Source: an uncultured Actinomycetes bacterium (GTDB lineage: Bacteria > Actinomycetota > Actinomycetes > S36-B12 > UBA5976). From it: DNA of 35,824 bases. The notes below the pieces were generated by a model. It ran no database searches and was not told where the DNA came from. It saw only the letters and a list, made by a program, of their open reading frames with translations. Below, piece by piece: positions 2,547 through 29,895 of the stretch. Position numbers and translations under genes: made by a program. How positions within the stretch are numbered: the first letter of the stretch is position 1; each line of letters begins with the position of its first letter. The DNA is taken from the NCBI GenBank assembly GCA_903892635.1, contig CAITJH010000047.1, positions 1 to 35,824 of the forward strand, read 5' to 3'.

Positions 2547-4184
<1,638 letters not shown>

Positions 4185-4192
4185 TTAGTTGT

Positions 4193-4238
4193 CCCAATAA
4201 AAAAATCCCTCCGAGCGATCGGGGGGATTTTTTGTTTA
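4193..4238. terminator. Bidirectional terminator, left copy of the 46-bp direct repeat
   Basis: AAAAAATCCCTCCGA and TCGGGGGGATTTTTT form a strong stem around a short loop, with an A-tract before and a T-tract after. It therefore serves both groEL (+) and the SIS gene (-). The same 46-bp unit recurs at 17430-17475 with two substitutions, both in or beside the loop (CG here, TA there). The last three bases (4236-4238) are the TAA stop of the minus-strand SIS gene. Confidence 0.93.
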
Positions 4239-5273
4239 CAACGTCATTGTCACTTTCGATAATCCGCGAGGTGCGTCAGGATTGTGCCCGCGTGTAATTG
4301 CCATTCTCACGATCACTTCTTGAAGCGCGATGATTTCAATCAATGGTGAAAGTTCGTCTGGAAGTGAATGATCGATCGCAAAACTTGCAGAGCCAAAATG
4401 CAATTGAGCCGATGGGCCAAAAACTATTAAGTTACTCGTCGCATCAGCGAGCCTTTCCAGTGTTGGAAGGATTGAGTTTTGTGCATCGCCGGCAGGGCAC
4501 ACTGCAATTACATGAGTATCACTTGCGACCATTGCCATTGGACCGTGCAACAAGTCCGCAGCACTAAATGCGTGAGCATCAAAATAACTTGTCTCCATTA
4601 TTTTGAGTCCCGCTTCAAGAGCAGAAGGTAACGAATAGCCTCGCCCAGTGAGAATCAATCGGTCTGTTGAAGCAAGGCGTAGGGCAAGTTGATCAAACTC
4701 GACGGTGCGCACTAAGACTGATCGACCAACGTTTGCCAATTCACGTGCTGGCTCGATGCTTTCATTGTTGAGTTTCTTGACAAGCAACCAGAGTGCAAGC
4801 ATCTGCGCCGAATATGACTTCGTTGCAGCGACAGCTGTTTCAACTCCAGCCATTACATCAATGTGAAGATCAACATTATGTGCCAAGGGGGACTCGGGAT
4901 TATTTGTAATCCCAAGAACAAGCGCTCCACCGGCCCGCGACAAGCGGGCAGTTTCGACCAGATCAGGAGAGCCTCCGCTTTGCGAAATCACGACCACCAA
5001 GGTGTTGGCTAATTGAGGCTTCGCTCCGTACACAGTGATTGATGACGGTGACATCAATCCAACAGGTAGTCCTAAGTCAATTTCACAGAGATACTTTCCG
5101 TACAGTGCAGCATGATCACTTGTGCCACGTGCTGCGAAGAGTACGAACTTCGGAGCGTAGTCACGAATCGCTTGAACTACTGGGTCAATTCGACTGGCTT
5201 GCTCAACTGAGCGATCGAAGGTAGCGGGTTGTTCCGCTATCTCGGCGCGCATAAAACTGCCTACTTCGGTCAT
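4236..5273 (-). CDS. SIS-domain sugar-phosphate deaminase/isomerase (NagB-II-like; possible deglycase)
   Basis: The 345-residue protein matches the isomerase half of GlmS and lacks the N-terminal glutaminase domain. It has two SIS domains. The first spans about residues 40-165, with ARGTSDHAALYGKYL, SQSGGS (98-103, phosphate binding) and TKSYSAQ. The second begins near 207, with GRGYSLPSALEAGLKIMETS and LLHGPMAMV, and the protein ends in PRGLSKVTMTL. This architecture is typical of NagB-II glucosamine-6-phosphate deaminases. Fructosamine-6-phosphate deglycases of the FrlB/FraB kind share the fold and are the main alternative. The ATG has AAAGG about 7 nt upstream. It is divergent from the GntR gene, whose likely start is 41 bp away, and is probably its regulatory target. 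Its stop codon lies in the left terminator repeat. Confidence 0.85.
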   Translation of the reverse strand: MTEVGSFMRAEIAEQPATFDRSVEQASRIDPVVQAIRDYAPKFVLFAARGTSDHAALYGKYLCEIDLGLPVGLMSPSSITVYGAKPQLANTLVVVISQSGGSPDLVETARLSRAGGALVLGITNNPESPLAHNVDLHIDVMAGVETAVAATKSYSAQMLALWLLVKKLNNESIEPARELANVGRSVLVRTVEFDQLALRLASTDRLILTGRGYSLPSALEAGLKIMETSYFDAHAFSAADLLHGPMAMVASDTHVIAVCPAGDAQNSILPTLERLADATSNLIVFGPSAQLHFGSASFAIDHSLPDELSPLIEIIALQEVIVRMAITRGHNPDAPRGLSKVTMTL

Positions 5274-5301
5274 GGGTGAACCTTTCGAGTCGTGGGTCTG
5301 G

Positions 5302-5307
5302 TACTTT
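5302..5307 (+). promoter_or_regulatory. -10 box for a leaderless GntR-regulator transcript
   Basis: TACTTT (TANNNT) ends 7 nt before the GTG at 5315, so transcription would begin at the start codon. No convincing -35 box was found. This supports starting the regulator at 5315 rather than at the GTG at 5276, which lies only 2 bp from the divergent SIS start. Confidence 0.5.
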
Positions 5308-5314
5308 TCGTTTC

Positions 5315-6109
5315 GTGACTGAAAATCAATCCAAGCTGCGGTACGAGATCGTCAAGGACATGATCCTTGGCATCATCGCTGACCAGCGCCTTCAACCGGG
5401 AGATCGACTTCCAACTTCGACTGAGTTGGCCGAACAATCCGGATTCAGTCTGATTTCGGTACGACGTGCATTGGACGAATTGGAACGAGCCGGACGTATC
5501 CAACGCCAACAAGGTGTTGGAACTTTTGTTGCGCAAAATCGCATCATGTCTGCGCCAGCTCGTACTGGTGAATTGTTGGAAACATTGGGTGGTCCTGATC
5601 ACGGGGCCAAACTCACAACCGAACTGGTCAGTATTAAAGCGGCGGTCCCTAGTTCGACGATCGCGGCCAACCTTCGTCTTGCTGATGGGCTTCCGGTTTG
5701 GGAAGTAGTTCGTCGCCGCATGCTCAGCGGCAAACCAATGATTGCTGAAACCGCTGTTATTCCGATGCAACTTGCTCCAACACTCGACGAAGAATGGCTG
5801 CGAGCTGGTAAATCGTTGTACGGACATCTGGCTACGAAGTACGGCTTGATTGATCAACATGAAGAACAATTTTTGGAAGTAACGGTGCCCACTTCTCACG
5901 AACGTGAGCAACTTGAATTGCCCACTCGCGAAAACATTGTTCGGGTGCGCGGTGTCAGCTATACCGAAGACGGCACTCCGTTCGACTGTTTCCAACAGAT
6001 TTATCCCGCCCGTCAGTTCGTGTTTTTTGTTTCTGGTTCCCAACAAAAACACCTACTGCCATCTGCAAATCCCAGTGATTGGAGTGTTACTCCACTGGGC
6101 AAAGGCTAG
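5315..6109 (+). CDS. GntR-family (HutC/UTRA) transcriptional regulator of the islet
   Basis: This is a DNA-binding repressor or activator, 264 residues from the GTG at 5315. The N-terminal winged helix covers about residues 5-75: KLRYEIVKDMILG, RLQPGDRLPTSTELAEQSG, SVRRALDELERAGRIQRQQGVGTFV. The rest is a UTRA ligand-binding domain (about 90-240) with VVRRRMLSGKPMIAETAVIP and a late VRVRGVSYTEDGTPFDCFQQIYPA. UTRA domains of this class often sense sugar phosphates; NagR/DasR relatives bind GlcNAc-6-P or GlcN-6-P, which suits the adjacent SIS enzyme. An in-frame GTG at 5276 would give a longer form (277 aa) and cannot be excluded. Its TAG stop lies inside a perfect palindrome at 6104-6124, a candidate operator. 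Confidence 0.88.
   Translation: MTENQSKLRYEIVKDMILGIIADQRLQPGDRLPTSTELAEQSGFSLISVRRALDELERAGRIQRQQGVGTFVAQNRIMSAPARTGELLETLGGPDHGAKLTTELVSIKAAVPSSTIAANLRLADGLPVWEVVRRRMLSGKPMIAETAVIPMQLAPTLDEEWLRAGKSLYGHLATKYGLIDQHEEQFLEVTVPTSHEREQLELPTRENIVRVRGVSYTEDGTPFDCFQQIYPARQFVFFVSGSQQKHLLPSANPSDWSVTPLGKG
6071..6099 (+). repeat. Imperfect hairpin at the end of the GntR gene
   Basis: CCCAGT (6071-6076) pairs with ACTGGG (6094-6099), and GGAGT (6081-6085) pairs with ACTCC (6089-6093). A GATT bulge and GTT loop remain unpaired. It lies in the last codons of the regulator, 4 bp before the palindrome, so two stems stand in tandem ahead of the aminotransferase promoter. Confidence 0.5.
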
Positions 6110-6124
6110 AAACGGTTTCTAGCC
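6104..6124. promoter_or_regulatory. Perfect 21-bp palindrome, candidate operator of the islet regulator
   Basis: GGCTAGAAAC and GTTTCTAGCC flank a single central G with no mismatch. It includes the GntR TAG stop (6107-6109) and lies 15 bp upstream of the -35 box of the aminotransferase promoter. No U-tract follows, so an operator is likelier than a terminator. Which regulator binds is not shown by the sequence. Confidence 0.55.
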
Positions 6125-6139
6125 AATTTGGTAAAAGTC

Positions 6140-6168
6140 TTGCCTAATCATTATGCAGAGTATAAGGT
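6140..6168 (+). promoter_or_regulatory. Promoter of the aminotransferase gene (leaderless)
   Basis: TTGCCT (6140-6145), 17 bp, TAAGGT (6163-6168). The predicted start falls at the GTG at 6176, 7 nt after the -10 box. This decides the start codon against the upstream TTG at 6128. Confidence 0.65.
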
Positions 6169-6175
6169 TACGAGC

Positions 6176-7531
6176 GTGACCACGACTGAATTCGATAAAG
6201 AATATGCCGAACTAGCAAAGCGCTCTGGTGAACTTTTCCAGCGCGCGAGCGAAATCATCCCTGGCGGTGCAGGCAGTAGTGCCCGTACACGCAAGTTTGG
6301 ATGGAAGCCATACCCACTCTTCATCAAAGATGGGTTAGGTTCCCGGATCACCGATGTCGATGGCAACGAATATATCGATTACCTACTTGGACTTGGTCCG
6401 ATGATTTTGGGGCACCGAAATCCAGTGGTAACCGAAGCTGTTGTCAATGCGATTCGTGACTATGGAACATGTTTCGGTTTGCCATACGAACTTGAAATTG
6501 AAGCAGCACAAAAAGTTGTTGATGCAGTTCCAAGTATCGAAATGGTTCGCTTCACGAACTCTGGTTCAGAAGCAGTGGGTTCAGCGGTACGTATTGCTCG
6601 AGCGGTAACGGGGCGGCGCTTGATCGTGCGTTTCGAGGGTCATTACCACGGCTGGCAAGACACGGTCTACTGGAGTAATCACGTAGACCCTAAGGAAGCT
6701 GGCCCTGCCGATCATCCTCGTCCAGTGCGATCAGGTCCTGGTGTTCCCCAAGAACTCGAAGACACATTGCTCGTACTGACGTGGAATGATCCAGAAAGTT
6801 TTGTGAAGTTGATGAAAGAGCGCGGTGAAGAAATCGCCGCAGTCATCACGGAGCCAGCTGTATTTAATACAGGTTGCATCCTTCCTGAGCCGGGTTATTT
6901 AGAACTGCTTCGTTCTGAAACAAAAAAGTACGGTTCGCTTCTGATCTTTGACGAAGTGATTACTGGATTCCGATTTGCTCGCGGTGGCGCTCAAGAATGG
7001 TTCAATGTCATGCCCGACATGACAACGATGGCCAAGGGCATTGGTGGTGGCTTCCCAGTTGCTGCAATCGGTGGCACTAAAGAAGTGATGAGCATTATTG
7101 CTGAAGGTCGGTACTCGCACTCAGGTACTTACAACGCGAATGTCATTCAGTGCGCTGCTGTGAGTGCAACTATGGACCTTCTCGCTGAGCCCGGCTTGTA
7201 CGAGCGCCAACGTGCATTGGGCTTCCGTCTTGCCGATGGCATTACCACGATGGCAGAAGACGCTGGTTTCCCATCGCGCATCGACGGAATTGGCACAGTG
7301 TTCCAACTGTGGTTCACTGAACATCCAATTCATAACTGGCGTGATGCAGAGAAGTATTCCAACGAAGAACTCTTCACGCAGTGGTACCAAGAAATGCTCA
7401 AGCGTGGCGTGCTGTTCCATCCAAGCCATCTCGAAAATCTATTCGTGTCACTAGTGCATACTGATGCTGACATTGATCGAACACTGGAGGCGGCTCAGGA
7501 TGCACTCACCGCAATGGCGCGTCGAGGATAG
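6176..7531 (+). CDS. Class III PLP-dependent aminotransferase, HemL-like
   Basis: The 451-residue protein belongs to the glutamate-1-semialdehyde aminomutase / class III aminotransferase family. Visible features (numbered from the GTG at 6176) are NSGSEA near 128-133 (phosphate binding), GHYHGW near 155-160, FDEVITGFR with the pyridine-binding Asp near 259, and the Schiff-base Lys near 287 in MAKGIGGGFPVAAIGG. True HemL belongs to tetrapyrrole synthesis, but here the partners are a sugar kinase, an SIS enzyme and a peptide transporter. An amino-sugar, amino-alcohol or omega-amine substrate is therefore more likely. The longer reading from 6128 is disfavoured by the promoter. It overlaps the downstream kinase by 32 nt, so the two are probably translationally coupled. 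Confidence 0.85.
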   Translation: MTTTEFDKEYAELAKRSGELFQRASEIIPGGAGSSARTRKFGWKPYPLFIKDGLGSRITDVDGNEYIDYLLGLGPMILGHRNPVVTEAVVNAIRDYGTCFGLPYELEIEAAQKVVDAVPSIEMVRFTNSGSEAVGSAVRIARAVTGRRLIVRFEGHYHGWQDTVYWSNHVDPKEAGPADHPRPVRSGPGVPQELEDTLLVLTWNDPESFVKLMKERGEEIAAVITEPAVFNTGCILPEPGYLELLRSETKKYGSLLIFDEVITGFRFARGGAQEWFNVMPDMTTMAKGIGGGFPVAAIGGTKEVMSIIAEGRYSHSGTYNANVIQCAAVSATMDLLAEPGLYERQRALGFRLADGITTMAEDAGFPSRIDGIGTVFQLWFTEHPIHNWRDAEKYSNEELFTQWYQEMLKRGVLFHPSHLENLFVSLVHTDADIDRTLEAAQDALTAMARRG

Positions 7532-8975
7532 TCACAACGTCTTCATTGGCCTCGATCTTGGAACCTCCGGTCTCAAGGGCCTAGCAGTTTCTGTCGATGG
7601 TCACGTTCTTGCACGAGGTCATTCAAGTTATGCGACTCATCGACCGCAAGCTGGAGCATCCGAGCAGGATGCGAATGAGTGGCTTAGCGCTGTATTCGAT
7701 GTTGTTACACAGTTAGCCAGGCAAGTTCCCAGTCAGCAGTGGGCGAGTATTGGACTATCGGGAATGATTCCCACATTGGTGTGCCTCGATAGTAAATATG
7801 AACCAGTTGGTCGAGCTATTACGTGGGAAGACGGACGTGCAGATGAGTTCGGAGACCAACTGCGAAGCTCCTATGGCGAACAGGCTCTGTATGAATTGAC
7901 GGGCCAATGGGTCGACGGTCGATACTTGCTTCCGATGTGGTCTCGACTGCGAGAAGTTGAACCTGAGCGCATTGCAAACACACAAGCAATCGCAGGAGCG
8001 AAAGACTTTATCTTCGCCAAACTCACAGGGCTTTTGGCAACCGACCCGAGCACCGCAACAGGTACAGGTTGTTATCGACTCAGTGATGGCACATGGGATG
8101 CAAAGGTATTGCAACTTGCAAGTTGCGAAGTAGCGTTGCCTGAAATCCTGCCGAGCACATACGCGCATGAATTAAGTGAGAGCGCTGCCAAGTGGCTAGG
8201 ACTTCCCATCGGACTTCCGGTATGCCTTGGCGCAGCCGACTCGGTCTTGGGTGCATTGGGCATGGGCGTAGACCAAGATGGCTCGATTGCTTATGTTGCA
8301 GGAACAAGCACGGTGATCCTTGGCGTGACTCGCAATGTTCCAATTGATCCGCTACATCGGTTTATTGTCACGCCAATGGCAACTGATAGCCTTTGGGGCG
8401 TCGAAATGGATTTGCTTTCGACTGGCGGTGCGATTCGATGGTTTGCAGGCTTACTTGGTCAATCCGACGAAGCTCAGGCGCTCGAATTAGCTGAGCAGGC
8501 AACATCAGAAAACCTTCCAGTATTTCTTCCGTATGTTGCACCGGGGGAGCAAGGAGCATTGTGGGATCCAACGTTGACCGGAACCGTTGTCGGTCTGGAG
8601 CTGTCTCATACTTCTGGTGATCTTATGCGCGCATTGATTGATGGCATCGTTTGTGAAAGCCTGCGATGCGTTGACGTACTTGAAGATATCGGATTTCCTG
8701 CGGGTACGTTAAGAGTTGCTGGTGGCAGCGCATTGAATCCGTGGTTCCGTCAGCAACTCGCAGATGCTACAGGTCGTGCAGTTGTTGCTCCAGTTGATGG
8801 TGATAGTGACTATTCAGCACTTGGGGCTGCCATGATCGCAGCATATTCACAGGCTCGTGAAATTACTCAAGCTGCTCAGGCGACAACAACAATTTCTGCA
8901 CGTACAAATAAACGAGACATTTGGCGTGAACGTTTTGATCGATATGACGCGATCCGTAAGGCAGCGCATCGATAG
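7500..8975 (+). CDS. FGGY-family carbohydrate kinase (xylulokinase-like)
   Basis: This is an ATP-dependent sugar kinase of the FGGY family, 491 residues. The N-terminal phosphate-binding motif is FIGLDLGTSGLKGLAVS (about residues 15-31). The ITWEDGRA segment near 108-115, the CLGAADSVLGALG catalytic-Asp region near 242-254, YVAGTSTVILG, and the C-terminal ATP-binding stretch RVAGGSALNPWFRQQLAD (about 403-420) followed by DYSALGAAMIAA are all present. The exact sugar cannot be read from the sequence. I chose the ATG at 7500 because GGAGG at 7486-7490 is 9 nt upstream; an ATG-type start further up at 7464 has no such site. It lies inside the end of the aminotransferase gene. An 84-bp gap with a possible promoter follows before the transporter genes. 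Confidence 0.88.
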   Translation: MHSPQWRVEDSHNVFIGLDLGTSGLKGLAVSVDGHVLARGHSSYATHRPQAGASEQDANEWLSAVFDVVTQLARQVPSQQWASIGLSGMIPTLVCLDSKYEPVGRAITWEDGRADEFGDQLRSSYGEQALYELTGQWVDGRYLLPMWSRLREVEPERIANTQAIAGAKDFIFAKLTGLLATDPSTATGTGCYRLSDGTWDAKVLQLASCEVALPEILPSTYAHELSESAAKWLGLPIGLPVCLGAADSVLGALGMGVDQDGSIAYVAGTSTVILGVTRNVPIDPLHRFIVTPMATDSLWGVEMDLLSTGGAIRWFAGLLGQSDEAQALELAEQATSENLPVFLPYVAPGEQGALWDPTLTGTVVGLELSHTSGDLMRALIDGIVCESLRCVDVLEDIGFPAGTLRVAGGSALNPWFRQQLADATGRAVVAPVDGDSDYSALGAAMIAAYSQAREITQAAQATTTISARTNKRDIWRERFDRYDAIRKAAHR

Positions 8976-8976
8976 A

Positions 8977-8995
8977 CGTTCATACAGACTGAACG
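8977..8995. repeat. Inverted repeat between the kinase and transporter genes
   Basis: CGTTCA (8977-8982) and TGAACG (8990-8995) flank a 7-bp spacer, directly after the kinase stop. It could be an operator half-site pair or a weak hairpin. No U-tract follows. Confidence 0.35.
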
Positions 8996-9024
8996 CCACG
9001 ATTGAATAACATATCTCAATTCCC

Positions 9025-9053
9025 TTGACGGTCGTATATGCGTCTGGTTCACT
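9025..9053 (+). promoter_or_regulatory. Possible promoter of the dipeptide-type ABC transporter genes
   Basis: A good -35 hexamer TTGACG (9025-9030) is followed 17 bp later by a poor -10, TTCACT (9048-9053). This would place the start at the ATG at 9060, again leaderless. The second base of the -10 deviates from TANNNT, so confidence is limited. Confidence 0.4.
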
Positions 9054-9059
9054 CATCTT

Positions 9060-10754
9060 ATGGTGAGTATGACAACTGAAAATCAAGAGTCGAATAATCA
9101 CGGTGGAATGCAGCGCCGAACATTCTTGCGAAGTGCTGCTTTGCTTGGAGTTGCCGCATCAGTCCCCGGCTTGCTCAGTGCGTGTGCTCCTCCGACAACA
9201 GCTGGTAGCTCGGGTAGCACTACAAAACTTCTCAAAGTCGGTTGGAAAAATGATATCGACACTTTCAACCCGTTCACCACAGTGACCACCGAAGCGATTG
9301 AAGTTCAGTCACTTATTTACGACAACTTGCTGCAGTATGGACTTGATCTAAAACCCGAACCAAGTTTGGCAACCGCGTCAAAAGCTGATGGCAACACAAT
9401 TACCTACACTCTTCGAGACGGCGTGACGTGGCATGACGGATCAGCATTAACTGCTGACGACGTTGTTTACACTTTTGATTTAATTGCAAAGAATCAACTT
9501 GGTATTAATGCGCAGTACCTTAAGGACCTCAAAACGGTCACTAGTCCGGATCCAAAGACTGTCGTTCTAGAATTCTCGCGACCACAAGCGTTTGATCCTG
9601 GTCTCGTTGTGCCAATTGTTCCGAAAGCAATTTGGTCCAAGATGACACCGAAGCAGATTGCGAAGTTTGATAACAGCACTCCTGTCGGTACAGGCCCATT
9701 CACTTTTGGTGCATGGAATAAAGGCCAGAATGTTTCCGTAGCGCGCAATGAAAAATGGTGGGGCACCAAGCCGGCCGCTGCTGGAGTGAGCTGGACTATT
9801 TACACCAATGATGATCTTCAAGCACAGGCGCTTAAGACAGGCGAGATTGACATCATTCCTCAGGTTCCGCCAACTGTCTTCACAGGGCTGCAAGGTGCTG
9901 ATGGAATTTCGACTGCGAATCTTGATTCATTTTCATTCCATCACATCGGTATTAACGTATCTGCGGACAAGAATTCAAAAGGCAACCCTCTCTTGCTCGA
10001 CAAGTCGGTGCGTCAAGCCCTCAGTTGCGCTCTAGATCGTAATCAAATTGTCCAGATCGCATACGCAGGATTGGCAAAGCCCGGTTCAGGTTTATTGCCG
10101 CCATCTTTTGGAGACTTCCACTACGAGCCAACTGCAGATGAGTTGCTAGACAACAACCCAACTAAGGCGAACCAGTTGCTTGATGCAGCCGGATACACAA
10201 AGAAAGATTCGAACGGAATACGTCAGTCTGCTGATGGAAAACCATTGTCATTTCGCATTATTGCGATCTCAACCACCACAGTTGACGTGCGTACTGCGCA
10301 GTTGTTCGTTGAGTCTGCGGCTAAAGTCGGTATTAAGTTAACGCTCACCACTTTGGACTCAGACACATTGGGCAGCACGGTTTACAACACCGATGGCCCA
10401 GATTGGGACATCTTCGTGTGGGGCTGGGATTCGGGAGTTTTTGATCCTGACTATCTACTAGGCGTCCCATTGACAAGCCAAATTGGCGGAAACAATGACG
10501 TTTTTTACTCCGATAAGGATTACGACGCCATGTACGACCAGCAAGCAACAGAGTTGGATCATGCGAAGCGTGTTGCTATCGTGCAAGCGATGCAAAAGAA
10601 ATACTACGAGGATTGCGCCTACATCATTCCGGTTTACCTCGACAAGCTTCAGGCCTATCGCAGTGCAAGTTGGAGTGGATGGAAGCAAACACCTGGCGGT
10701 GTCATCTTCAATTTCACTCGCGATAACTACCTGAAGGTGACTGCAGGAAGTTAG
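9060..10754 (+). CDS. ABC transporter substrate-binding lipoprotein, family 5 (peptide/nickel type)
   Basis: This 564-residue SBP_bac_5 protein is the extracytoplasmic receptor of the downstream Dpp-like transporter. The N-terminus carries a Tat-type lipoprotein signal: QRRTFLR at residues 18-24, a hydrophobic stretch, and the lipobox LSAC with the lipidated Cys at 42. The mature part shows WKNDIDTFNPFTTVTTEA, the family motif region YTLRDGVTWHDGSALTADDVVYTFD, and a late DWDIFVWGWDSGVFDPDYLL. Family members bind di- and oligopeptides but also some oligosaccharides and opines, so the fold does not fix the ligand. The start at ATG 9060 has no ribosome binding site; ATG 9069 is also possible. 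It is the first gene of the transporter operon. Confidence 0.93.
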   Translation: MVSMTTENQESNNHGGMQRRTFLRSAALLGVAASVPGLLSACAPPTTAGSSGSTTKLLKVGWKNDIDTFNPFTTVTTEAIEVQSLIYDNLLQYGLDLKPEPSLATASKADGNTITYTLRDGVTWHDGSALTADDVVYTFDLIAKNQLGINAQYLKDLKTVTSPDPKTVVLEFSRPQAFDPGLVVPIVPKAIWSKMTPKQIAKFDNSTPVGTGPFTFGAWNKGQNVSVARNEKWWGTKPAAAGVSWTIYTNDDLQAQALKTGEIDIIPQVPPTVFTGLQGADGISTANLDSFSFHHIGINVSADKNSKGNPLLLDKSVRQALSCALDRNQIVQIAYAGLAKPGSGLLPPSFGDFHYEPTADELLDNNPTKANQLLDAAGYTKKDSNGIRQSADGKPLSFRIIAISTTTVDVRTAQLFVESAAKVGIKLTLTTLDSDTLGSTVYNTDGPDWDIFVWGWDSGVFDPDYLLGVPLTSQIGGNNDVFYSDKDYDAMYDQQATELDHAKRVAIVQAMQKKYYEDCAYIIPVYLDKLQAYRSASWSGWKQTPGGVIFNFTRDNYLKVTAGS

Positions 10755-10766
10755 CGATATCTTTTT

Positions 10767-11735
10767 ATGAGCTACTTGCCACGCAAGACTTTGTTGCTCT
10801 TGGGATCGATCTTTTCGATCACGACGTTCAACTTCTTTCTTTTTCACGTCATTCCTGGCGACCCAATTAGGCTGATAGCACGAACTCAAAAACTTGATGC
10901 ACAACAAGTAGCTCAGTTGCGTAAAGATTACGGTCTAGATGGCTCGTTATTTTCCCAATACCTGACGTATCTAAAAAACTTGCTTCACGGTGATTTGGGC
11001 TATTCCTTTTCGTTGCATGAACCAGTGGCAACTGTTCTTTTTAGAGCGCTGGGACACACAGTCCTGTTGCTTACTTTCTCAACATTGATTGTTGTTGGCG
11101 CTGGTATTGCAATCGGCGTTTTTGCTGGTTCTCGTCAGGGATCTAAAAAAGATTCGATGACAGTTATTGGCGCGTTAGTTTTTTGGAGCATGCCAACATT
11201 CTGGGTTGGAATGCTCCTGGTCTTTATTTTTGGTGTGTGGTTTGCTGTGCTTCCTATTTCAGGAATCACAACTCCTAATGCTGTCTATCCAACCTATTTG
11301 TCTTACGTCTTGGATATTGGGCGGCATTTAATTTTGCCAACGTTAACTTTGGCGCTGGTTGACATCGCATTCTTTATTTTGATCACACGAACGGCAGTCG
11401 TTGAAGTAATGGGTGAGGATTACATGCTGACTGCACGCGGAAAGGGACTTCCTCGGCGGCGACTTGTTTGGCGTCACGGTGTTCGTAATGCGCTGCTGCC
11501 CGTACTGACCGCGTCGGCTCTGTACATCAGTGCACTCGTTGGCGGCGCTATCCAAGTAGAGGTTGTTTATTCATGGCCTGGCATGGGCTTGTTGATGTAT
11601 AACTCTGTTCTAGCGCGTGACTACCCAGTACTTGAAGCAACGTTCCTTGTAAGTTCAATTGTTGTTCTTCTCGCTAACTTCATCAGCGACATTATGTATC
11701 GCGTTCTTGATCCACGAGTGACGGTGTCTCAATGA
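10767..11735 (+). CDS. Dipeptide-type ABC transporter permease, DppB-like
   Basis: This 322-residue inner-membrane subunit has about six hydrophobic segments. The first (TLLLLGSIFSITTFNFFLFHVIPGDP) is followed by the family-typical extracytoplasmic LRKDYGLDGSLFSQYLTYLKNLLHGDLGYS. The cytoplasmic EAA loop that docks the ATPases is at GEDYMLTARGKGLPRRRL and HGVRNALLPVLT. It lies 12 bp after the binding-protein gene and overlaps the next permease gene by 4 nt (ATGA), so translation is probably coupled. Confidence 0.93.
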   Translation: MSYLPRKTLLLLGSIFSITTFNFFLFHVIPGDPIRLIARTQKLDAQQVAQLRKDYGLDGSLFSQYLTYLKNLLHGDLGYSFSLHEPVATVLFRALGHTVLLLTFSTLIVVGAGIAIGVFAGSRQGSKKDSMTVIGALVFWSMPTFWVGMLLVFIFGVWFAVLPISGITTPNAVYPTYLSYVLDIGRHLILPTLTLALVDIAFFILITRTAVVEVMGEDYMLTARGKGLPRRRLVWRHGVRNALLPVLTASALYISALVGGAIQVEVVYSWPGMGLLMYNSVLARDYPVLEATFLVSSIVVLLANFISDIMYRVLDPRVTVSQ

Positions 11736-12628
11736 GCGAACAATTTATTTCTGAGGTTGTGGCCGATGAAGCGCCACGCCATCGCAACCTATTCCAGCAG
11801 CTATGGTCAGACCGCATGGGCCGGGTAGGAATTATCATGACCATTGTCGTGCTTGTTGCTGCAATCGTCGGCCCAGTTATTTGGGCTTTTGATTCTTCTG
11901 CGGTCGGTGCTGATGCTTCCTCCATTTTGCAAGGACCAAGTTCAGCCCACTGGCTTGGAACTGATGAACTGGGCCGTGATGTCTTTAGTCAATTCCTTGA
12001 AGGGTCACGCGTTTCTTTGCTTGTTGGCGTGATGGCAACTTTGATTTCAACGATTATCGGCGCCGGTATAGGTATCTCATCTGGATATTTCACAGGACGA
12101 CTTGATACAACTCTCATGGCTGTCACTGATTTCTTTCTCGTGGTACCAGCGTTGCCATTGATGATTGCGATGGGTGCAATATTTGGTCAGAGTCTGACGA
12201 TCATCATTGCGATTATTGGCTTGTTGAGTTGGCCGCGAACAGCTCGGATTATTCGCTCACAAACATTGACACTTCGCGAACGTAAGTTTGTACCGCGGGC
12301 ACGTTCCTTAGGCGCAACGAACTGGCGCATTATTCGAACACACATCATTCCTCACGTTTTGCCGTTAATGGTTGCGAACACGATCTTGGTTGTCGCTGGC
12401 GCGATTCTTTCGGAAGCAACTCTGGCGTTCATCGGCCTCGGTGATCCAAACCGAATCTCGTGGGGGTCGATGTTGCATTTTGCATTCTCATCGGGAGCTG
12501 TTGGGCGCGGTGCATGGTGGTACTTCATGCCGCCCGGAATTGGCATTCTCATAATTGTGCTGGCTTTTACTTTGGTCGGGCATGCCTTTGATCGCATAAA
12601 TAATCCACGATTGAGAGATGCCGCATGA
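11732..12628 (+). CDS. Dipeptide-type ABC transporter permease, DppC-like
   Basis: This is the second membrane subunit, 298 residues. It begins with the N-terminal cytoplasmic segment and first membrane helix typical of DppC/OppC (LFQQLWSDRMGRVGIIMTIVV). The conserved HWLGTDELGRDVFSQFLEGSRVSLLVG follows, and the EAA loop is at KFVPRARSLGATNWRIIRTHIIPHVLP. Pairing with the DppB-like protein would form the transmembrane channel. Overlaps of 4 nt on both sides (ATGA) place it firmly inside the operon. Confidence 0.94.
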   Translation: MSEQFISEVVADEAPRHRNLFQQLWSDRMGRVGIIMTIVVLVAAIVGPVIWAFDSSAVGADASSILQGPSSAHWLGTDELGRDVFSQFLEGSRVSLLVGVMATLISTIIGAGIGISSGYFTGRLDTTLMAVTDFFLVVPALPLMIAMGAIFGQSLTIIIAIIGLLSWPRTARIIRSQTLTLRERKFVPRARSLGATNWRIIRTHIIPHVLPLMVANTILVVAGAILSEATLAFIGLGDPNRISWGSMLHFAFSSGAVGRGAWWYFMPPGIGILIIVLAFTLVGHAFDRINNPRLRDAA

Positions 12629-13605
12629 GCTTGTTAACGGTTCGGGATCTCAGCGTCCAATACGGAACAGTGCAAGGCGGCGTCCTTGCGGTAGATCGCG
12701 TTGATCTGACAATCAACCGGGGTGAATTTGTTGGATTGGCAGGTGAATCGGGGTGTGGCAAAACAACTCTGGCGATGTCGATACCGAACTTATTGCCAAA
12801 ATATGCATCAATCGTGTCAGGATCTGTTGAGTTTGAAGGCAAAGACATCGCGACGTTTAGTGAATCTGAACTCAATACATTGCGTTGGAAAGATGTTTCG
12901 GTAATTTTTCAAGGTGCGCTCAATGCATTGAACCCAGTTCAACGAATTGGTGACCAAATCGCAGAGCCCATCTTGATTCATGAACCGGGCACTTCACATG
13001 ACGAAGCTTGGCGGCGAGCCTGTGAGTTGTTAGAAGCTGTAGGAATTCCTTCGGCCCGTGCGAAAAGTTATCCTCATGAGTTTTCCGGTGGAATGCGTCA
13101 GCGCGTAATGATTGCAATGTCTCTGGCTTGCAAGCCGAAGCTCGTCATTGCGGACGAACCTATTACTGCTCTTGATGTGATGACGCAGGCGCAAATTCTT
13201 GATCTCTTACGTGAATTATCTACCTCATTTGATCTCTCGTTACTCTTGATTTCACATGACCTTTCGGTTCTTGCAGAGACGTGCGATCGCGTTCAAGTAA
13301 TGTACGCCGGCCGAGCAGCCGAAGCCGGAACAGCTAGTGAAGTGTTTGGCGCAGGCAATGCCGCACACCCCTACACGCGACGCCTATTGAACTCGTATCC
13401 AAACATCAATGGCGAGCGAGTATTCATTGACGGAATTCCGGGGTACCCACCGGATTTATCGCAGCCGCAAATTGGATGCAGATTTGCTGCGCGCTGTTCT
13501 GAAGCAATCGATGTTTGTCGGACAAGTGAACCTGATTTGGTTGCGATCTCTGCAACTCACTCGGTTGCGTGTCATCTTGCCGGGAAGTCGGTAACTCATG
13601 GATAG
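12625..13605 (+). CDS. Dipeptide-type ABC transporter ATPase, DppD-like
   Basis: This 326-residue ATP-hydrolysing subunit has Walker A GESGCGKTT (about residues 39-47), Q-loop VIFQGALNALNP, signature FSGGMRQRV, Walker B LVIADEPITALD and switch His in ISHDLSVLA. The C-terminal oligopeptide-transporter domain carries HPYTRRLLNSYP and four cysteines (GCRFAARC, DVC, VACH). In some characterised relatives this pattern binds an iron-sulfur cluster; whether this one does is inference. It overlaps both neighbours (4 nt before, 8 nt after). Confidence 0.95.
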   Translation: MSLLTVRDLSVQYGTVQGGVLAVDRVDLTINRGEFVGLAGESGCGKTTLAMSIPNLLPKYASIVSGSVEFEGKDIATFSESELNTLRWKDVSVIFQGALNALNPVQRIGDQIAEPILIHEPGTSHDEAWRRACELLEAVGIPSARAKSYPHEFSGGMRQRVMIAMSLACKPKLVIADEPITALDVMTQAQILDLLRELSTSFDLSLLLISHDLSVLAETCDRVQVMYAGRAAEAGTASEVFGAGNAAHPYTRRLLNSYPNINGERVFIDGIPGYPPDLSQPQIGCRFAARCSEAIDVCRTSEPDLVAISATHSVACHLAGKSVTHG

Positions 13606-14593
13606 TAATCAGCCAACTTTAGAAGTAACGAATCTCGTTGTTGAGTATTCTGCCAAGTCACGCTCGGGTCGTGGAGTTGAGGTTGCTCGCGCAGTTGATG
13701 GCGTTAATCTTTCGATCGCGTCTGGCGAGACACTTGCGATTGTCGGTGAATCCGGAAGCGGGAAATCGTCAATTGCGAATGCAATCATGCGGTTGATTGA
13801 CGTGGCCGATGGATCTATTTCGCTTGAAGGGCAAAATCTGCTCGACCTGAACGGTGCGCAACTTCGGACTGCCCGACGAAACTTTCAAATGATTTTCCAA
13901 GATCCCTTTGAATCGTTGGATCCTCGACGCACAGTGCTTGACACGGTTATTGAATCAATTGCAATTGCAGGAATCGCGAGTAGTCACGAAGATCAGAAGG
14001 CACTAGCCCTTCAGGCACTCGAAAACGTCGGACTCATCCCAGCAGAACGTGTTGGGGAGAGATATACATACCAACTTTCCGGTGGCCAACGTCAACGTGT
14101 TGCGATCGCAGCCGCTATGGTTCTCAAGCCTCGACTACTTGTTGCGGATGAACCTGTATCAATGCTCGACGTGTCATTACGTGCAGGTATTTTGCGCTTG
14201 ATGCAACAAATGAGTGAGCAGCTTGGTGTTGCAACCTTGTTCATCACTCACGATCTTTCGCTGGCATGGATGTATGCGGATCGAATTGCGGTGGTGTACC
14301 TCGGGCGAGTTGTTGAAGAAGCGTCAGCTGCTGAATTGATTACGTCACCGCAACATCCATACACCAAAGCATTGGTCTCGGTCATTCCAGTCCCAGAAGT
14401 TTCGACTCACGATAAGCGAATCGTGCTCACAGGGGAAATCCCGAATCCGACTGATATTCCTGCTGGCTGCCGCTTCCGTCCTCGTTGTCCGAAGTTCCGC
14501 GAACTTGGCGAGCCTGATGTATGTGCAACCCTTGATCCCAAACTAAAGTCAACAGATAACCATTACGTGGCCTGTCACTTCGCTGGCCAATAG
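13598..14593 (+). CDS. Dipeptide-type ABC transporter ATPase, DppF-like
   Basis: This is the second ATPase subunit, 331 residues. It has Walker A GESGSGKSS (about residues 50-58), Q-loop MIFQDPFESLDP, signature LSGGQRQRV, Walker B LLVADEPVSMLDVS and H-loop ITHDLSLAWMYADR. The C-terminal domain has HPYTKALVSVIP and a four-cysteine pattern (GCRFRPRC, DVC, ACH). It probably forms the nucleotide-binding heterodimer with the DppD-like protein. The ATG at 13598 lies 8 nt inside the preceding gene. Confidence 0.95.
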   Translation: MDSNQPTLEVTNLVVEYSAKSRSGRGVEVARAVDGVNLSIASGETLAIVGESGSGKSSIANAIMRLIDVADGSISLEGQNLLDLNGAQLRTARRNFQMIFQDPFESLDPRRTVLDTVIESIAIAGIASSHEDQKALALQALENVGLIPAERVGERYTYQLSGGQRQRVAIAAAMVLKPRLLVADEPVSMLDVSLRAGILRLMQQMSEQLGVATLFITHDLSLAWMYADRIAVVYLGRVVEEASAAELITSPQHPYTKALVSVIPVPEVSTHDKRIVLTGEIPNPTDIPAGCRFRPRCPKFRELGEPDVCATLDPKLKSTDNHYVACHFAGQ

Positions 14594-14601
14594 GAGCAAC
14601 A

Positions 14602-15759
14602 GTGGAATTCACCCGCGAGCAGGTCGTTGACCTGTTATCGACACTCGTCCGAATTGAATCCGTCACACCTTGGCTGATTGAAACTGGTAAGGGAGAACGC
14701 GCGCAAGCCGAGTATCTTGCAGAGTGGTTATCTGATACCTCACTTGAAGTGACTTTAGACGAAGTTCAGGATGGTCGTCCAAATTTACTTGTTCGACTTC
14801 GAGGAACTGGTGAAGGTCCGACCTTGTGCATCAATGCGCATGCAGACACTGTTGGCTATGGAAATTGGCCGACTCGTGCACTTGAGCCAGTCATCGAAGG
14901 GGATCGAATGATTGGCCTCGGTGCTGCAGATGACAAGGCAGGTTGCGTATCTGCGCTGCTTGCGGTCAGAGCACTTGCCGAAAATAACGTGAAGCTTAAT
15001 GGTGACGTCTTAGTTGCATGCGTCATCGATGAAGAAGGTGTTTCGATAGGTACCGAACACCTCGTTGCCAATCACAAGATGGACTATGCGATTGTGATCG
15101 AGCCAACTGGCCTACCAATTGCGATCACTGAACATCAAGGGTTTGGTTGGATCGACATTATTGTTCACGGTAAAGCCGCTCATGGCTCAGCTGCTGATGC
15201 AGGAATCGATTCCATCGTGCATATGGCTGAGGTTGTGACTCGGTTACATGAACTTGATGAGCGCGAGTGGGCACCGAACCCAGATCCCCTCAATGGTCGT
15301 ACCGTTTTTCATACAGGAACAATTCAAGGCGGAACTGATTACGCCACATACCCGAGCAAAACTGTGTTGGGGATTGAGATCGGTTCGCAACCTGGTGAAA
15401 CTCTTGATAATCGAATCGCAGACATCAACCAAATCTTTGCTGATATCACCGCAAAGTATCCAAACTTCCACGGCGAAATTGACGTGAAACTTAATCGCAA
15501 TCCTTTCGTAGGTGAAGGATTCGAGCTGCTGCTGGCCGCAATGAATAAAGCGGCAATTGAAGTTATTGGTAAACCTATGGCGCCTCAAGGCGAAAACTCG
15601 TGGACTGATGCCGCACTGTTGCAGGAAGCAGGAATTCCAACACTTCTTGTAGGCCCTGCAGGCGGTAACTACCATGCCGAAGATGAATGGGTATCTATTT
15701 CTGAGGTGGTTCAAATGACCGATATTCTTTACCGCACCATTATTGAACTGTTGAAATAG
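14602..15759 (+). CDS. M20-family metallopeptidase (ArgE/DapE/carboxypeptidase type)
   Basis: This 385-residue cytoplasmic dizinc amidohydrolase has all metal and catalytic positions in place. They are His80 in NAHADT, bridging Asp110 in GAADDKAG, base Glu144 and ligand Glu145 in VIDEEG, Glu167 in VIEPTG, and a final His in NYHAEDEW. The lid domain sits in between (about 178-290, with HGKAAHGSAADAG). Family members cleave amide bonds of dipeptides, N-acyl amino acids or carbamoyl groups. The GTG at 14602 has AGGAG (14592-14596) 5 nt upstream. Its position right after the transporter suggests it acts on the imported compound. Confidence 0.9.
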   Translation: MEFTREQVVDLLSTLVRIESVTPWLIETGKGERAQAEYLAEWLSDTSLEVTLDEVQDGRPNLLVRLRGTGEGPTLCINAHADTVGYGNWPTRALEPVIEGDRMIGLGAADDKAGCVSALLAVRALAENNVKLNGDVLVACVIDEEGVSIGTEHLVANHKMDYAIVIEPTGLPIAITEHQGFGWIDIIVHGKAAHGSAADAGIDSIVHMAEVVTRLHELDEREWAPNPDPLNGRTVFHTGTIQGGTDYATYPSKTVLGIEIGSQPGETLDNRIADINQIFADITAKYPNFHGEIDVKLNRNPFVGEGFELLLAAMNKAAIEVIGKPMAPQGENSWTDAALLQEAGIPTLLVGPAGGNYHAEDEWVSISEVVQMTDILYRTIIELLK

Positions 15760-15763
15760 ATCT

Positions 15764-17437
15764 ATGGACAGGTCGGCGCAAGCGGAAGCAGTTTTAGAAC
15801 GAATTGCGAACTTCGCTATAGAACTTACTCAAGGAACGCCGGTTCCAGGTGGAAGTGTTCGAGTAGTAGATCGCAATGGTTTAGTTGGCGAATTTGCCTT
15901 TGGCTATGCAGATGTCATTGCGCAGACTCCAGCTCGGCTTGATCATCGTTACGAAATAGGTTCAATCAGTAAGACTTTTACATCGTTACTGATCTACGCA
16001 CTGGTTGACGACAAACTCATTGACCTTGATGAACCTGTCACAACTTATTTGCCTTGGTTTGTCGGAGGTGAGCCAGATGCTCCGATGACCGCGCGCCATT
16101 TGTTGTCTCATACAGCTGGGCTAATTCTAGGTTCGGATCATATTCCTGATGAGCTCGCTCAAGTATGGGGAATGCGCAACCTTGCACGTAGTGGCGCTTT
16201 GGGCGAACGTTTCCACTATTCAAACCTCGGTTTCATGACGCTCGGAGCAATCGTGGAGGCGGTCACAGGTGACACTGTGGCTTCGCAACTTCGTCGCAGG
16301 GTCTTTGAGCCGATGGGCATTTCTGATGCTCGCGTCGGAGTAACACACGTCGATCATGCAACTATGGCAACGGGACACTGGCCATTACACGATGATCGGC
16401 CATGGACTGAAAACGACCCGCTTGCGCATGCTACGTGGTTTGAAGTGGCCTGTGCCGATGGAAACGTTGCTGCAAATATCCACGAATTAAGCGAACTAGC
16501 TCGCTTGATGCTGGGCGATGGAACATTAGATTCCCGCCGCATAGTCACTCAATCTGCGATGAATGAAATTGTTGCACCAAACGCCCCCACAGGCGAGGGC
16601 ACCGTTGAATGGGGAAATAGCCCAAAGGTTGATTCAAGTCGCTATGGGCTGGGCGTGAATGTCGAATTCATTGACGGCAATCATTGTGTAACGCATGGAG
16701 GTGGCATGGTTGGCTATGCAACATTCATGTTGGCCGATCGCACAAGTGGAATTGGCGTCGCAGTTCTCACAAATGGAAATGGCGATTATCCGGCAGCACA
16801 ATTAGTTGCACGCGTCACTCATCAGCAGTTTGTCGCGGAACTTTCCGGTCGAAGCGTTCCTGCATTGCCACCAACATCAGCACGACTGCTAGTGAGCGAG
16901 ATTTCAGAACAGCACCTAGGTGATTTCCATGGTGTTGCTCATGATGGAACACGATTATCATTGACCATTTCAAGCTTGGACGGAATTGTGCATGTTGAGT
17001 GCAAAGGTCAGCGGGCACCTGTGTATCGCACATGGACAGCTCGATTTGCGACCAGTCATCCTGATCTACGGCGATTCCATTTGCAGATCGTTGACGATTA
17101 CTGGACTTTTGGACCCTACGCACTACGTCGCTCAGAACGACCAGTTGTTGAATTAACTTCAGTTCAACAAGCTCTAGTAGGTCACTACCGATGTTATTCG
17201 CCGTGGTACACGAACTTTCGAATAATTGCTAGAGAGGGACAGTTGTATCTCGTAGCACCTGGGGGAGTGGAATCTCAGACTGAGGATTGCTTACTTATTG
17301 AACTCAATGACGGCGAATTTCGAATCGGGCAAGATCCATGGATGCCCGAACGATTATTAGTCGGCCCGATTGTTGGTGGACGGGCGATCTCAGTGATTCG
17401 TGATGGTTGCCTTTACTCAAGGTCGTTTACCCAATAA
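15764..17437 (+). CDS. Cytoplasmic serine hydrolase, class C beta-lactamase/DD-peptidase fold, with C-terminal extension
   Basis: The first ~345 residues of this 557-residue protein are a beta-lactamase-like domain. The catalytic Ser67-x-x-Lys70 is in SISK, the second motif is Tyr152-Ser-Asn, and the third motif His311-Gly-Gly is in THGGGMVGY. No signal peptide or membrane segment is seen, so it probably works inside the cell on imported material rather than on cell wall or as a resistance enzyme. The last ~200 residues form an extension of unrecognised beta-rich type. Relatives include D-aminopeptidases and esterases. It starts 4 bp after the M20 gene, with no clear ribosome binding site. 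Its TAA stop (17435-17437) lies inside the right terminator repeat. Confidence 0.85.
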   Translation: MDRSAQAEAVLERIANFAIELTQGTPVPGGSVRVVDRNGLVGEFAFGYADVIAQTPARLDHRYEIGSISKTFTSLLIYALVDDKLIDLDEPVTTYLPWFVGGEPDAPMTARHLLSHTAGLILGSDHIPDELAQVWGMRNLARSGALGERFHYSNLGFMTLGAIVEAVTGDTVASQLRRRVFEPMGISDARVGVTHVDHATMATGHWPLHDDRPWTENDPLAHATWFEVACADGNVAANIHELSELARLMLGDGTLDSRRIVTQSAMNEIVAPNAPTGEGTVEWGNSPKVDSSRYGLGVNVEFIDGNHCVTHGGGMVGYATFMLADRTSGIGVAVLTNGNGDYPAAQLVARVTHQQFVAELSGRSVPALPPTSARLLVSEISEQHLGDFHGVAHDGTRLSLTISSLDGIVHVECKGQRAPVYRTWTARFATSHPDLRRFHLQIVDDYWTFGPYALRRSERPVVELTSVQQALVGHYRCYSPWYTNFRIIAREGQLYLVAPGGVESQTEDCLLIELNDGEFRIGQDPWMPERLLVGPIVGGRAISVIRDGCLYSRSFTQ

Positions 17438-17480: not shown

Positions 17481-17780
17481 TTAAGCCAGACGACTCTTCT
17501 TGCCGTCTAGGCGAGCGTAAATTTCTTGACGTTCTTCTTCGCTCAGTCCGCCCCATACGCCGTATGGTTCGCGTGACTTGATTGCAGCATCGCGGCACTG
17601 CGTTAGCACTGGGCAAGTTGCGCACACTGCCTTAGCTTGTGCAACGCGTCGCTCGCGTGCTTGTCCACGTTCGCCATCTGGATGGTAGAAAACGCCAGAG
17701 TCCATGCCACGGCATGCACTGTCGAGTTGCCAATCCCAGAAGTCGGCGTTTGGACCAGGAAGCCGAGTTACATCAGCCAT
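17481..17780 (-). CDS. WhiB-family [4Fe-4S] transcriptional regulator (WhiB/WhiD-like)
   Basis: This is an actinobacteria-specific redox- or NO-sensing regulator that works with the principal sigma factor. From the ATG at 17780 it has 99 residues. The four cluster cysteines are C23, C53, C56 and C62, in the Wbl pattern C-x29-C-x2-C-x5-C. The GVWGG turn is at 74-78 and the basic tail is DGKKSRLA. A longer in-frame reading from 17840 exists, but it would begin upstream of the predicted transcription start, so I reject it. A purine-rich AAAGGGTG precedes the chosen ATG. In the actinobacterial backbone whiB commonly sits between groEL and guaB, which supports the islet reading to its left. Confidence 0.93.
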   Translation of the reverse strand: MADVTRLPGPNADFWDWQLDSACRGMDSGVFYHPDGERGQARERRVAQAKAVCATCPVLTQCRDAAIKSREPYGVWGGLSEEERQEIYARLDGKKSRLA

Positions 17781-17823
17781 GTTTTCACCCTTTGATTTCG
17801 TACGGTTAGCCCCGATTGGTACT

Positions 17824-17851
17824 ATCTTAAACCGTTTCATAAGTTGGTCAA
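17824..17851 (-). promoter_or_regulatory. whiB promoter
   Basis: Read on the minus strand, TTGACC (17851-17846), 16 bp, TAAGAT (17829-17824). Predicted transcription start is near 17817, giving a 5' leader of about 35 nt before the ATG at 17780. Confidence 0.7.
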
Positions 17852-17879
17852 GCCATTTAGGTGAACAATTTATGAAGAG

Positions 17880-17888
17880 TTATCCACA
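17880..17888 (+). promoter_or_regulatory. Perfect DnaA box
   Basis: TTATCCACA matches the strict DnaA consensus and lies in the 157-bp whiB-merR intergenic region, upstream of both promoters. It is the only perfect copy I noticed. It is not an origin on its own; DnaA regulation of one of the flanking genes is possible, and so is chance. Confidence 0.4.
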
Positions 17889-17937: not shown

Positions 17938-18900
17938 ATGTCCGATACAGCGCAAGCCCCAGAAGCAGGGCTAACTGTGTCTGCAGTCGCCAGTCGACTC
18001 GGCGTTGCGCCGGCCACTTTGCGCACTTGGGACCGCCGCTATGGGGTTGGTCCATCGGATCACAGTGAGGGTCAGCACCGACGTTACACGACTCGCGACC
18101 TCGAACGTTTGCTCCTGATGCGCCACGCAATTCTGCAGGGCTACCCACCAGCAGACGCAGCAAAGCTGGCACTGGCCGAAGAAAATGCACAAGATGCCAA
18201 CGCTGCCGAAACGCCATCGGAACCGTTTCGTGGTCTGAGCTTGGTCAGTGATGACGACGACACGAATGTGGTCATTGATTTAGAAGGACCACGCGCATCG
18301 ATTCGGGCTCTGAACCGAGCATCTTCCATGTTGGATGGCCAAGCTTGCGATCGCATCATTGGCAATCTGATCGAGCGCAACGGTGTTGTATGGACTTGGA
18401 TCAATGTGTTGTGTCCCGTGCTGAGTATGGCCGGCGAAAGCTGGGAACGTACGAACAGTGGCATTGAAGTCGAACACGTACTTTCTGAATCAATCATTAA
18501 CCAATTCCGCGTTGTCACGAGTGCTCTACAAGAGCCAACCAACGCCAAGCCAGTCTTACTCGCGGGTGCTCCAAACGAACTTCACACTTTGCCGCTTTAC
18601 GTCATTGCTGCCGGCCTAGCTGAACTGAATATCTCTGCCCGCATGTTCGGTGCCCGATTGCCTATCGAAGCATTGAGTAGCGCATTTGATCGTGTTGGTC
18701 CAAGCGCCGTCGTTATTTGGTCGCAAACTCGCGGTACTGCGGATGCTGCCGTCTGGGAAGCCTTGACTCAAATGCGCCACATGCCATTGCTAATGGCTGG
18801 CGGATACGGATGGCAAGAAGAAGATCTCCCGCAGGGCATCGAGCGTGGCATCGATCTGCAAAGTACGTTACTTTCGCTGGTTGCTGCCACCGGTCGGTAA
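17938..18900 (+). CDS. MerR-family regulator with CarH/LitR-like cobalamin-binding domain
   Basis: The 320-residue protein has a MerR winged helix at about residues 12-75 (VSAVASRLGVAPATLRTWDRRYGVGPS, then QHRRYTTRDLERLLLM). A linker follows, then a helical-bundle plus Rossmann-like B12 module. The bundle carries GESW169-x9-E179-H180, the W-x9-EH signature that caps adenosylcobalamin in CarH. The next domain has NELH216TLPL at the place of the lower axial His, then GLAELNISARMFGARLP. CarH and LitR are photoreceptors that release carotenoid genes in light. The residues are seen here; binding and light response are inference. The usual Gly three residues after the His is Pro219. The start codon context lacks a clear ribosome binding site. 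Confidence 0.85.
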   Translation: MSDTAQAPEAGLTVSAVASRLGVAPATLRTWDRRYGVGPSDHSEGQHRRYTTRDLERLLLMRHAILQGYPPADAAKLALAEENAQDANAAETPSEPFRGLSLVSDDDDTNVVIDLEGPRASIRALNRASSMLDGQACDRIIGNLIERNGVVWTWINVLCPVLSMAGESWERTNSGIEVEHVLSESIINQFRVVTSALQEPTNAKPVLLAGAPNELHTLPLYVIAAGLAELNISARMFGARLPIEALSSAFDRVGPSAVVIWSQTRGTADAAVWEALTQMRHMPLLMAGGYGWQEEDLPQGIERGIDLQSTLLSLVAATGR

Positions 18901-18947: not shown

Positions 18948-20501
<1,554 letters not shown>

Positions 20502-29328: not shown

Positions 29329-29463
29329 CATTTTTACCTTAATCTGGCCCTTAGGGGAAATGGATTCGGGGCTGATGGGGCAAAAGTGACATAACAGCCC
29401 GTGATACATCTCACGCCGTCCGAAAGGCCGAAAAAAAGCCCTGGAACTTGTGGCTCTAGGCCA

Positions 29464-29895
29464 ATGCCTGACACCATTGCACTTGTGACGGGAATCCGCG
29501 TTTTAGTGGGCAAGCCAGGGCTTGATGGTCATGATCGTGGCGCAAAAGTGATTGCCCGTGCCCTTCAGGATTCAGGTATTGACGTGTACTACACAGGTCT
29601 GCACCAAAGTGCGACCGACATTGTGGATGCTGCCGAAGAGCAAAAAGTGGACGCCATCGGCCTTTCTATTCTCTCTGGTGCTCATCTGACGCTGTTTCCG
29701 GCTGTGATCGAGTTGCTCAAACAACGAGGTATGGAAGACATTCCCGTTTTTGGTGGCGGGATCATTCCTGCCGATGATGTGCCTGTTTTGTTGGACAAGG
29801 GTGTCTCTCAAATTTTTCTGCCAGGAACTCCTGTCAGCGAAGTCGTTGAGTGGGTGAGCGACAATGTTCGCCCACGCGCTCAAACTGCAAACTAG
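29464..29895 (+). CDS. Stand-alone cobalamin-binding subunit (acyl-CoA mutase small subunit, IcmB-like)
   Basis: From the ATG at 29464 the 143-residue protein is a complete B12-binding domain. It contains the D-x-H-x-x-G motif (Asp21, His23, Gly26) within VGKPGLDGHDRGAKVIARAL, then GLSILSGAH and FGGGIIP. This closely matches IcmB, the small subunit of isobutyryl-CoA mutase, and the C-terminal domain of methylmalonyl-CoA mutase. The large catalytic subunit is not in the window, so the reaction cannot be fixed. The neighbour sucC makes a propionyl/methylmalonyl-to-succinyl-CoA link attractive. An in-frame GTG at 29401 would add 21 residues of unlikely, basic sequence. I favour 29464 because family members begin about ten residues before IRVLV. 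Confidence 0.88.
   Translation: MPDTIALVTGIRVLVGKPGLDGHDRGAKVIARALQDSGIDVYYTGLHQSATDIVDAAEEQKVDAIGLSILSGAHLTLFPAVIELLKQRGMEDIPVFGGGIIPADDVPVLLDKGVSQIFLPGTPVSEVVEWVSDNVRPRAQTAN

Follow-up and report, generated by a model that had tools for sequence, protein, structure and literature searches.

Several regulators of the MerR family sense light through coenzyme B12. LitR of Streptomyces coelicolor is a coenzyme-B12 photosensor (PMC12705666). CarH operators overlap promoters and are made up of 11-bp repeats of the form nAnnTnnACAn (PMC8156234). The cofactor is not used throughout: CarA of M. xanthus retains the B12 motif but functions without B12 (PMC8156234), and LitR classes II, IV and V are reported not to have a complete B12 domain (PMC9758184). 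According to the authors of SignatureFinder, CtMerR, SasPcob and AbDPcob are devoid of H132, the bis-His light-state ligand of CarH, yet they are light-responsive (PMC11796333).

We analyzed a stretch of 35,824 nucleotides (the window) from an uncultured Actinomycetes bacterium, the assembly of which has 1.68 Mb in 92 contigs and is 96% complete. It codes for a LitR/CarH-type MerR regulator, referred to as MerRB12 (Table 1). LitR/CarH proteins are a known kind of regulator; its genomic location, operator geometry and target set are new. We infer that MerRB12 binds adenosylcobalamin (AdoCbl), represses and responds to light, with AdoCbl being the light-labile co-repressor of a switch that acts on whiB, on the regulator gene itself and, in relatives, on rhodopsin. 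We assign a probability of about 60% to this reading.

Table 1. Features of the whiB/merRB12 region, with positions in the window.
Feature	Position	Strand	Basis or remark
groEL	2556..4184	+	conserved neighbour upstream of whiB and merRB12; groES at 2183-2482
whiB	17481..17780	-	Pfam Whib, E 9e-24; start moved to ATG 17780 from listed 17840
whiB promoter (predicted)	17824..17851	-	-35 TTGACC (17846-17851), 16-bp spacer, -10 TAAGAT (17824-17829)
Left arm of putative operator	17830..17851	+	tandem 11-bp repeats DR1 AACCGTTTCAT and DR2 AAGTTGGTCAA; conserved in 93 non-redundant loci
Right arm of putative operator	17861..17882	-	second repeat pair, inverted, TAACTCTTCAT / AAATTGTTCAC, at an offset of exactly 31 bp
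merRB12 (LitR/CarH-type MerR regulator)	17938..18900	+	Pfam, CarH alignment, orthologues, fold, tree
MerRB12 domain layout			HTH about 10-80; linker 91-115; four-helix cap and Rossmann cobalamin domain 116-320
guaB (IMP dehydrogenase)	18972..20501	+	conserved downstream neighbour

Cobalamin site, fold and affiliation of MerRB12

The merRB12 reading frame is open throughout, starts with ATG and codes for 320 residues. Pfam assigns MerR_1 (E 3e-15) and, in the cap domain, B12-binding_2 with an E-value of only 0.008, which is under the family cut-off. The top NCBIfam model covering most of the protein (residues 12-295) is CarH (NF052513). The score of 67.9 bits compares with a cut-off of 400 bits for this equivalog, and thus MerRB12 is not a CarH in the narrow equivalog sense.

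The top PDB sequence match found by phmmer is CarH from T. thermophilus (3whp, E 1.6e-14). The alignment pairs W169, E179, H180 and H216 of MerRB12 with W131, E141, H142 and H177 of CarH. The first-pass annotation had recognized the spacing of the CarH capping motif in W169-x9-E179-H180 and had placed His216 at the lower axial ligand; both assignments are borne out by this alignment. The distance from E179 to H216 is 37 residues, compared to 36 in CarH, which corresponds to a single inserted residue. Among the elements used by SignatureFinder, GxxW, EH and GxxxP are present, and GxxH is found without its Gly (NELH, with N213). This Gly is seen in 10 of 81 relatives and also in Streptomyces LitR. 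Two more positions differ from T. thermophilus CarH: E170 stands where CarH has H132, and the HxxG motif reads HxxP, with Pro at 219. Shared with that protein are the MerR-type HTH, the AdoCbl domain, the Wx9EH motif, the His as lower ligand, the fold and the use of 11-bp operator repeats.

Orthologues were collected from the genomes of 60 relatives, and 30 sequences were aligned. A loss of W169, H180 or H216 in close homologues had been named as a finding that would refute the B12 or light sensor, but all three are invariant (30/30), as are G166, E179, G238, P242 and W261. In a wider set consisting of 80 named loci and the query (n=81), H180 and H216 are conserved in all 81 sequences, E179 in 80 and W169 in 77. 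When the 206 positions of the C-terminal domain are ranked by conservation, all seven CarH signature positions are among the first 26 (hypergeometric p 2e-7). As judged from the alignment, the cobalamin motif in MerRB12 exceeds chance. An orthologue from Actinomadura meyerae (L154:9971-11509) has His in place of W169; its gene is followed by a putative operator and an ECF sigma gene.

The structure prediction that had been suggested gave a CarH-like cobalamin fold (AlphaFold AF2 model, built with orthologue sequences, pLDDT 87). The best matches of this model, obtained with Foldseek and VIA-align, are AdoCbl photoreceptors. Z-scores are 21 for photocobilins, 19-20 for CarH and 19 for CtMerR, with 17.5 for methionine synthase (MetH). 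CtMerR from Chloracidobacterium and photocobilins such as SasPcob, the top fold matches (Z 19-21), resemble MerRB12 in being devoid of the bis-His ligand. They differ in their output domains or genome context and share only 17-19% sequence identity with it.

Streptomyces LitR (class I) is closer. In a record from Streptomyces atratus, the gene order is ECF sigma, MerR, oxidoreductases, lycopene cyclase and crt genes, which we take to be the known litS-litR-crt arrangement. The LitR encoded in this crt cluster has the same residues as MerRB12 at Glu170, Pro219 and Trp261, and the pattern GxxWE..EH..ExH..P..W is common to both. Sequence identity to Streptomyces LitR is 42-47% (tblastn with a MerRB12 family member). 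In a single quick tree (FastTree), the Streptomyces crt-cluster LitR is nested within the MerRB12 clade (support 0.967), and CarH-like proteins with Gly219 are outside this LitR/MerRB12 clade. The Pro in place of the expected Gly had raised doubts concerning cobalamin binding. Because the Streptomyces crt-cluster LitR carries the same Pro, this residue is characteristic of the LitR branch of actinomycetes rather than a defect, and the doubt is removed. Streptomyces LitR, the gene of which belongs to a carotenoid cluster, has an ECF sigma gene as its target, whereas MerRB12 is encoded between whiB and guaB. The S. atratus litR/litS spacer also shows 11-bp tandem repeats; the putative operator of MerRB12 has another sequence and is located in the whiB promoter and, in relatives, ahead of rhodopsin genes. 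With MerRB12, the Streptomyces LitR photosensor would gain relatives in a conserved core locus.

MerRB12 might descend from LitR but have become independent of cobalamin or light, acting on the same operator and responding to a partner protein or to no signal at all. There are precedents in CarA from M. xanthus (PMC8156234) and in class II LitRs (PMC9758184), and this would be in line with the loss of Gly213 and with an assembly in which an adenosyltransferase of family PF01923 was not detected (see below). We consider it unlikely, as W169, E179, H180 and H216, residues with a known role in holding AdoCbl, are conserved across the order as strongly as the HTH core. In addition, a complete B12 domain is reportedly missing from LitR classes II, IV and V, whereas the prediction for MerRB12 shows the entire fold.

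The whiB/merRB12 locus and its putative operator

The divergent whiB/merRB12 pair, flanked by groESL and by guaB-guaB3, recurs in almost every one of 80 named loci. These are mostly from Nanopelagicales and other actinobacterial MAGs; Motilibacter and Goodfellowiella are among those with whiB/merRB12 synteny. Rv3415c of M. tuberculosis may fill the same slot. The first-pass annotation had noted a position between whiB and guaB, away from carotenoid genes. In many loci, genes for a TPR protein and a BldM-like response regulator separate merRB12 from guaB. In most relatives, groEL directly adjoins whiB, and the region from 4236 to 17437 of the window therefore looks like an insertion. It carries SIS-domain, GntR, M20 peptidase and beta-lactamase-family genes and further ORFs. 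A megablast search of the neighbourhood against plasmids gave zero matches.

The whiB ORF as originally listed (17481-17840) is over-extended. A ribosome-binding site, AAAGGGTG, precedes the ATG at 17780, which probably is the start codon since, on the minus strand, the promoter follows shortly after 17840.

The spacer between whiB and merRB12 contains a putative operator of 53 bp (17830-17882), made up of one pair of 11-bp repeats and, 9 bp away, a second pair facing it. This differs from the operators of CarH, in which all repeats are in tandem (three in T. thermophilus, four in B. megaterium). Of 93 loci, 24 (about a quarter) have the inverted second pair at exactly +31 bp; the runner-up offset accounts for only 2 of the 93. 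DR2 (AAGTTGGTCAA) agrees with the CarH repeat nAnnTnnACAn at four of its five defined bases. When up to three mismatches are allowed, the whiB/merRB12 site is the sole occurrence in the source genome.

DR1 and DR2 overlap the spacer and the -35 element of the whiB promoter. On the whiB strand, the repeat pair contains the -35, which reads TTGA in 91 of the 93 loci; a TANNNT -10 lies 16-18 bp further on in 86, compared to 14 expected. Both repeats therefore fill the promoter spacer, which is the usual position for members of the MerR family. A putative operator of 11-bp repeats that overlaps a promoter is as in LitR/CarH class I. Because it fills the whiB promoter spacer, it is plausible that MerRB12 makes the core locus light-responsive. 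The classification of MerRB12 as a regulator of the B12/light-sensor type is well supported by conservation, fold, membership in the LitR clade and this CarH-like putative operator of 11-bp repeats.

MerRB12 itself is the likely binder of the repeats. They might instead be bound by another regulator (WhiB or a small HspR-like MerR protein) or simply be part of the whiB promoter, in which case they would be uninformative with respect to MerRB12. The whiB -35 element does fall inside DR2, and small MerR/HspR-like proteins are also encoded in these genomes. However, neither the spacer repeat DR1 nor the inverted pair at +31 is a promoter element. Relative to transcription, the element at rhodopsin genes is oriented the other way round from the element at whiB. 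The merRB12 gene of Actinomadura does not adjoin whiB, and here the element accompanies merRB12 and is located between it and an ECF sigma gene, two genes that make up a litR-litS-like pair. The element is absent from genome G040, which has lost merRB12 but kept the groEL-linked whiB. We regard binding by another regulator, or a role in the promoter only, as the least probable of the alternatives considered here.

For MerRB12 as an AdoCbl-dependent switch, we envisage the following mechanism. In the dark, the AdoCbl-bound protein would oligomerise via its cobalamin domains, so that its HTH domains could occupy the 11-bp repeats of the operator. As this covers the -35 element and the spacer, whiB would be held down and MerRB12 would be autoregulated. 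Blue-green light would cleave the Co-C bond and loosen the complex, permitting expression of whiB and merRB12. Where the same operator precedes rhodopsin, as in many relatives, rhodopsin would be part of the same switch.

The repeat element at rhodopsin genes of relatives

The element model was first scanned across 60 relatives. Besides whiB/merRB12, there was one strong intergenic site, which is located 99 bp before the rhodopsin start in genome G032. Weaker sites precede rhodopsin in G030, G035 and G019. In G010 (L045:4908-6213), the rhodopsin gene comes immediately after whiB in the same orientation, and the pair is divergent from merRB12 with a gap of 175 bp.

As the first rhodopsin match was post hoc, rhodopsin genes were sampled across the order, and new upstream regions were fetched. 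Among these 73 previously unused regions, which are not phylogenetically independent, 22 have a shuffle p of ≤0.005, and they represent 9 of 21 genera. With a score of at least 12, DR1 is followed by DR2 at exactly 11 bp in 19 of the 73 regions, while any other spacing occurs at most twice. These 19 repeat pairs have one orientation throughout, the one seen for merRB12. A score of at least 14 is reached by 15 of 73 rhodopsin regions. The controls, 1935 upstream regions, include 81 that score this high, almost all of them merRB12 starts. In many relatives, the element is positioned about 70-150 bp before the rhodopsin gene. The genes beyond the site vary when inspected by eye (JAMM peptidase, glutamate racemase, S4-domain protein), and the site therefore goes with rhodopsin. 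In genomes of the same genus, most rhodopsin promoters are devoid of the element. The recurrence of the element suggests that these bacteria tune light-related genes by a B12 light switch.

Genomes without MerRB12 could be expected to have no operator at rhodopsin, but this test proved too weak because nearly all rhodopsin genomes carry MerRB12, and there was one apparent exception. In G387, the rhodopsin repeat pair is kept and full-length MerRB12 was not detected.

MerRB12 could also report the level of AdoCbl, repressing when B12 is plentiful, with light not being the physiological signal. The conserved neighbours (whiB, guaB, groESL) are not light genes, the family also adjoins whiB in soil actinomycetes, and the bis-His ligand H132 is absent. 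The element is, however, found at rhodopsin promoters, the closest characterized relative, LitR, is a photosensor, and CtMerR is light-responsive even though it lacks H132 (PMC11796333). We regard a pure AdoCbl-level sensor as rather improbable, slightly more so than a regulator that has become independent of cobalamin.

A more far-reaching proposal is that a B12 light switch in the whiB-guaB core locus controls the WhiB redox regulator and rhodopsin genes in an order that includes the abundant freshwater Nanopelagicales, via a new operator geometry in which the 11-bp repeats form two pairs that face each other. This is tentative, the odds being slightly against it. Keyword searches of the open-access literature returned no LitR/CarH-type regulator linked to rhodopsin or whiB in freshwater actinobacteria. 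If the proposal is correct, one B12 sensor would link rhodopsin and a WhiB regulator to green light and to the supply of the vitamin, and a DNA site would have been named the function of which is directly testable.

In some rhodopsin upstream regions (for example L347, L357, L360 and L364), the repeat pair is followed by a further conserved string, CAACTTGCG, with (C/A)GTC located about 24 bp beyond it. This may represent an unusual promoter.

Carotenoid genes and corrinoid metabolism

In the source genome, crtB is located on a contig other than that of the window, and no repeat pair was found in the 14 kb around it. The typical LitR/CarH context, adjoining crt genes or an operator at such genes, is thus not found. 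In three relatives, the model matches 3.2 kb before crtB, but this was rejected as conserved coding sequence (codons of a KLAPKVGQ-like peptide), and no convincing operator emerged at crt genes. Other matches of the model are mostly within ORFs and look like chance. A rhodopsin gene was not detected in the source assembly, a MAG that is 96% complete and can miss genes. The first-pass annotation had recommended a genome-wide search for the operator at carotenoid or rhodopsin genes; this was negative for the genome's own crt genes, with no rhodopsin gene detected there, but positive for rhodopsin genes in relatives. From its view of MerRB12 as a B12 or light sensor, the regulator type stands, on the basis of conservation, fold, clade and putative operator, while the suggested link to carotenoids was not found. 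The interpretation given there has a better than even chance of being correct.

The cob(I)alamin adenosyltransferase family PF01923 was not found in the source assembly (96% complete) and is present in 56 of 60 relatives. The window codes for a stand-alone B12-binding domain protein (29401-29895, plus strand; PF02310, E 8e-24) that resembles the small subunit of acyl-CoA mutases. In many relatives, such a protein is encoded about 10-15 kb from merRB12.

On contig C13 of the source genome (L044 1-9000), an MttB-type methyltransferase, a corrinoid protein, an MTHFR-like protein and a RACo-type activator are encoded beside an IclR regulator. Judging from these annotations, the locus is devoted to corrinoid-dependent demethylation, indicating corrinoid use in the genome that codes for MerRB12.
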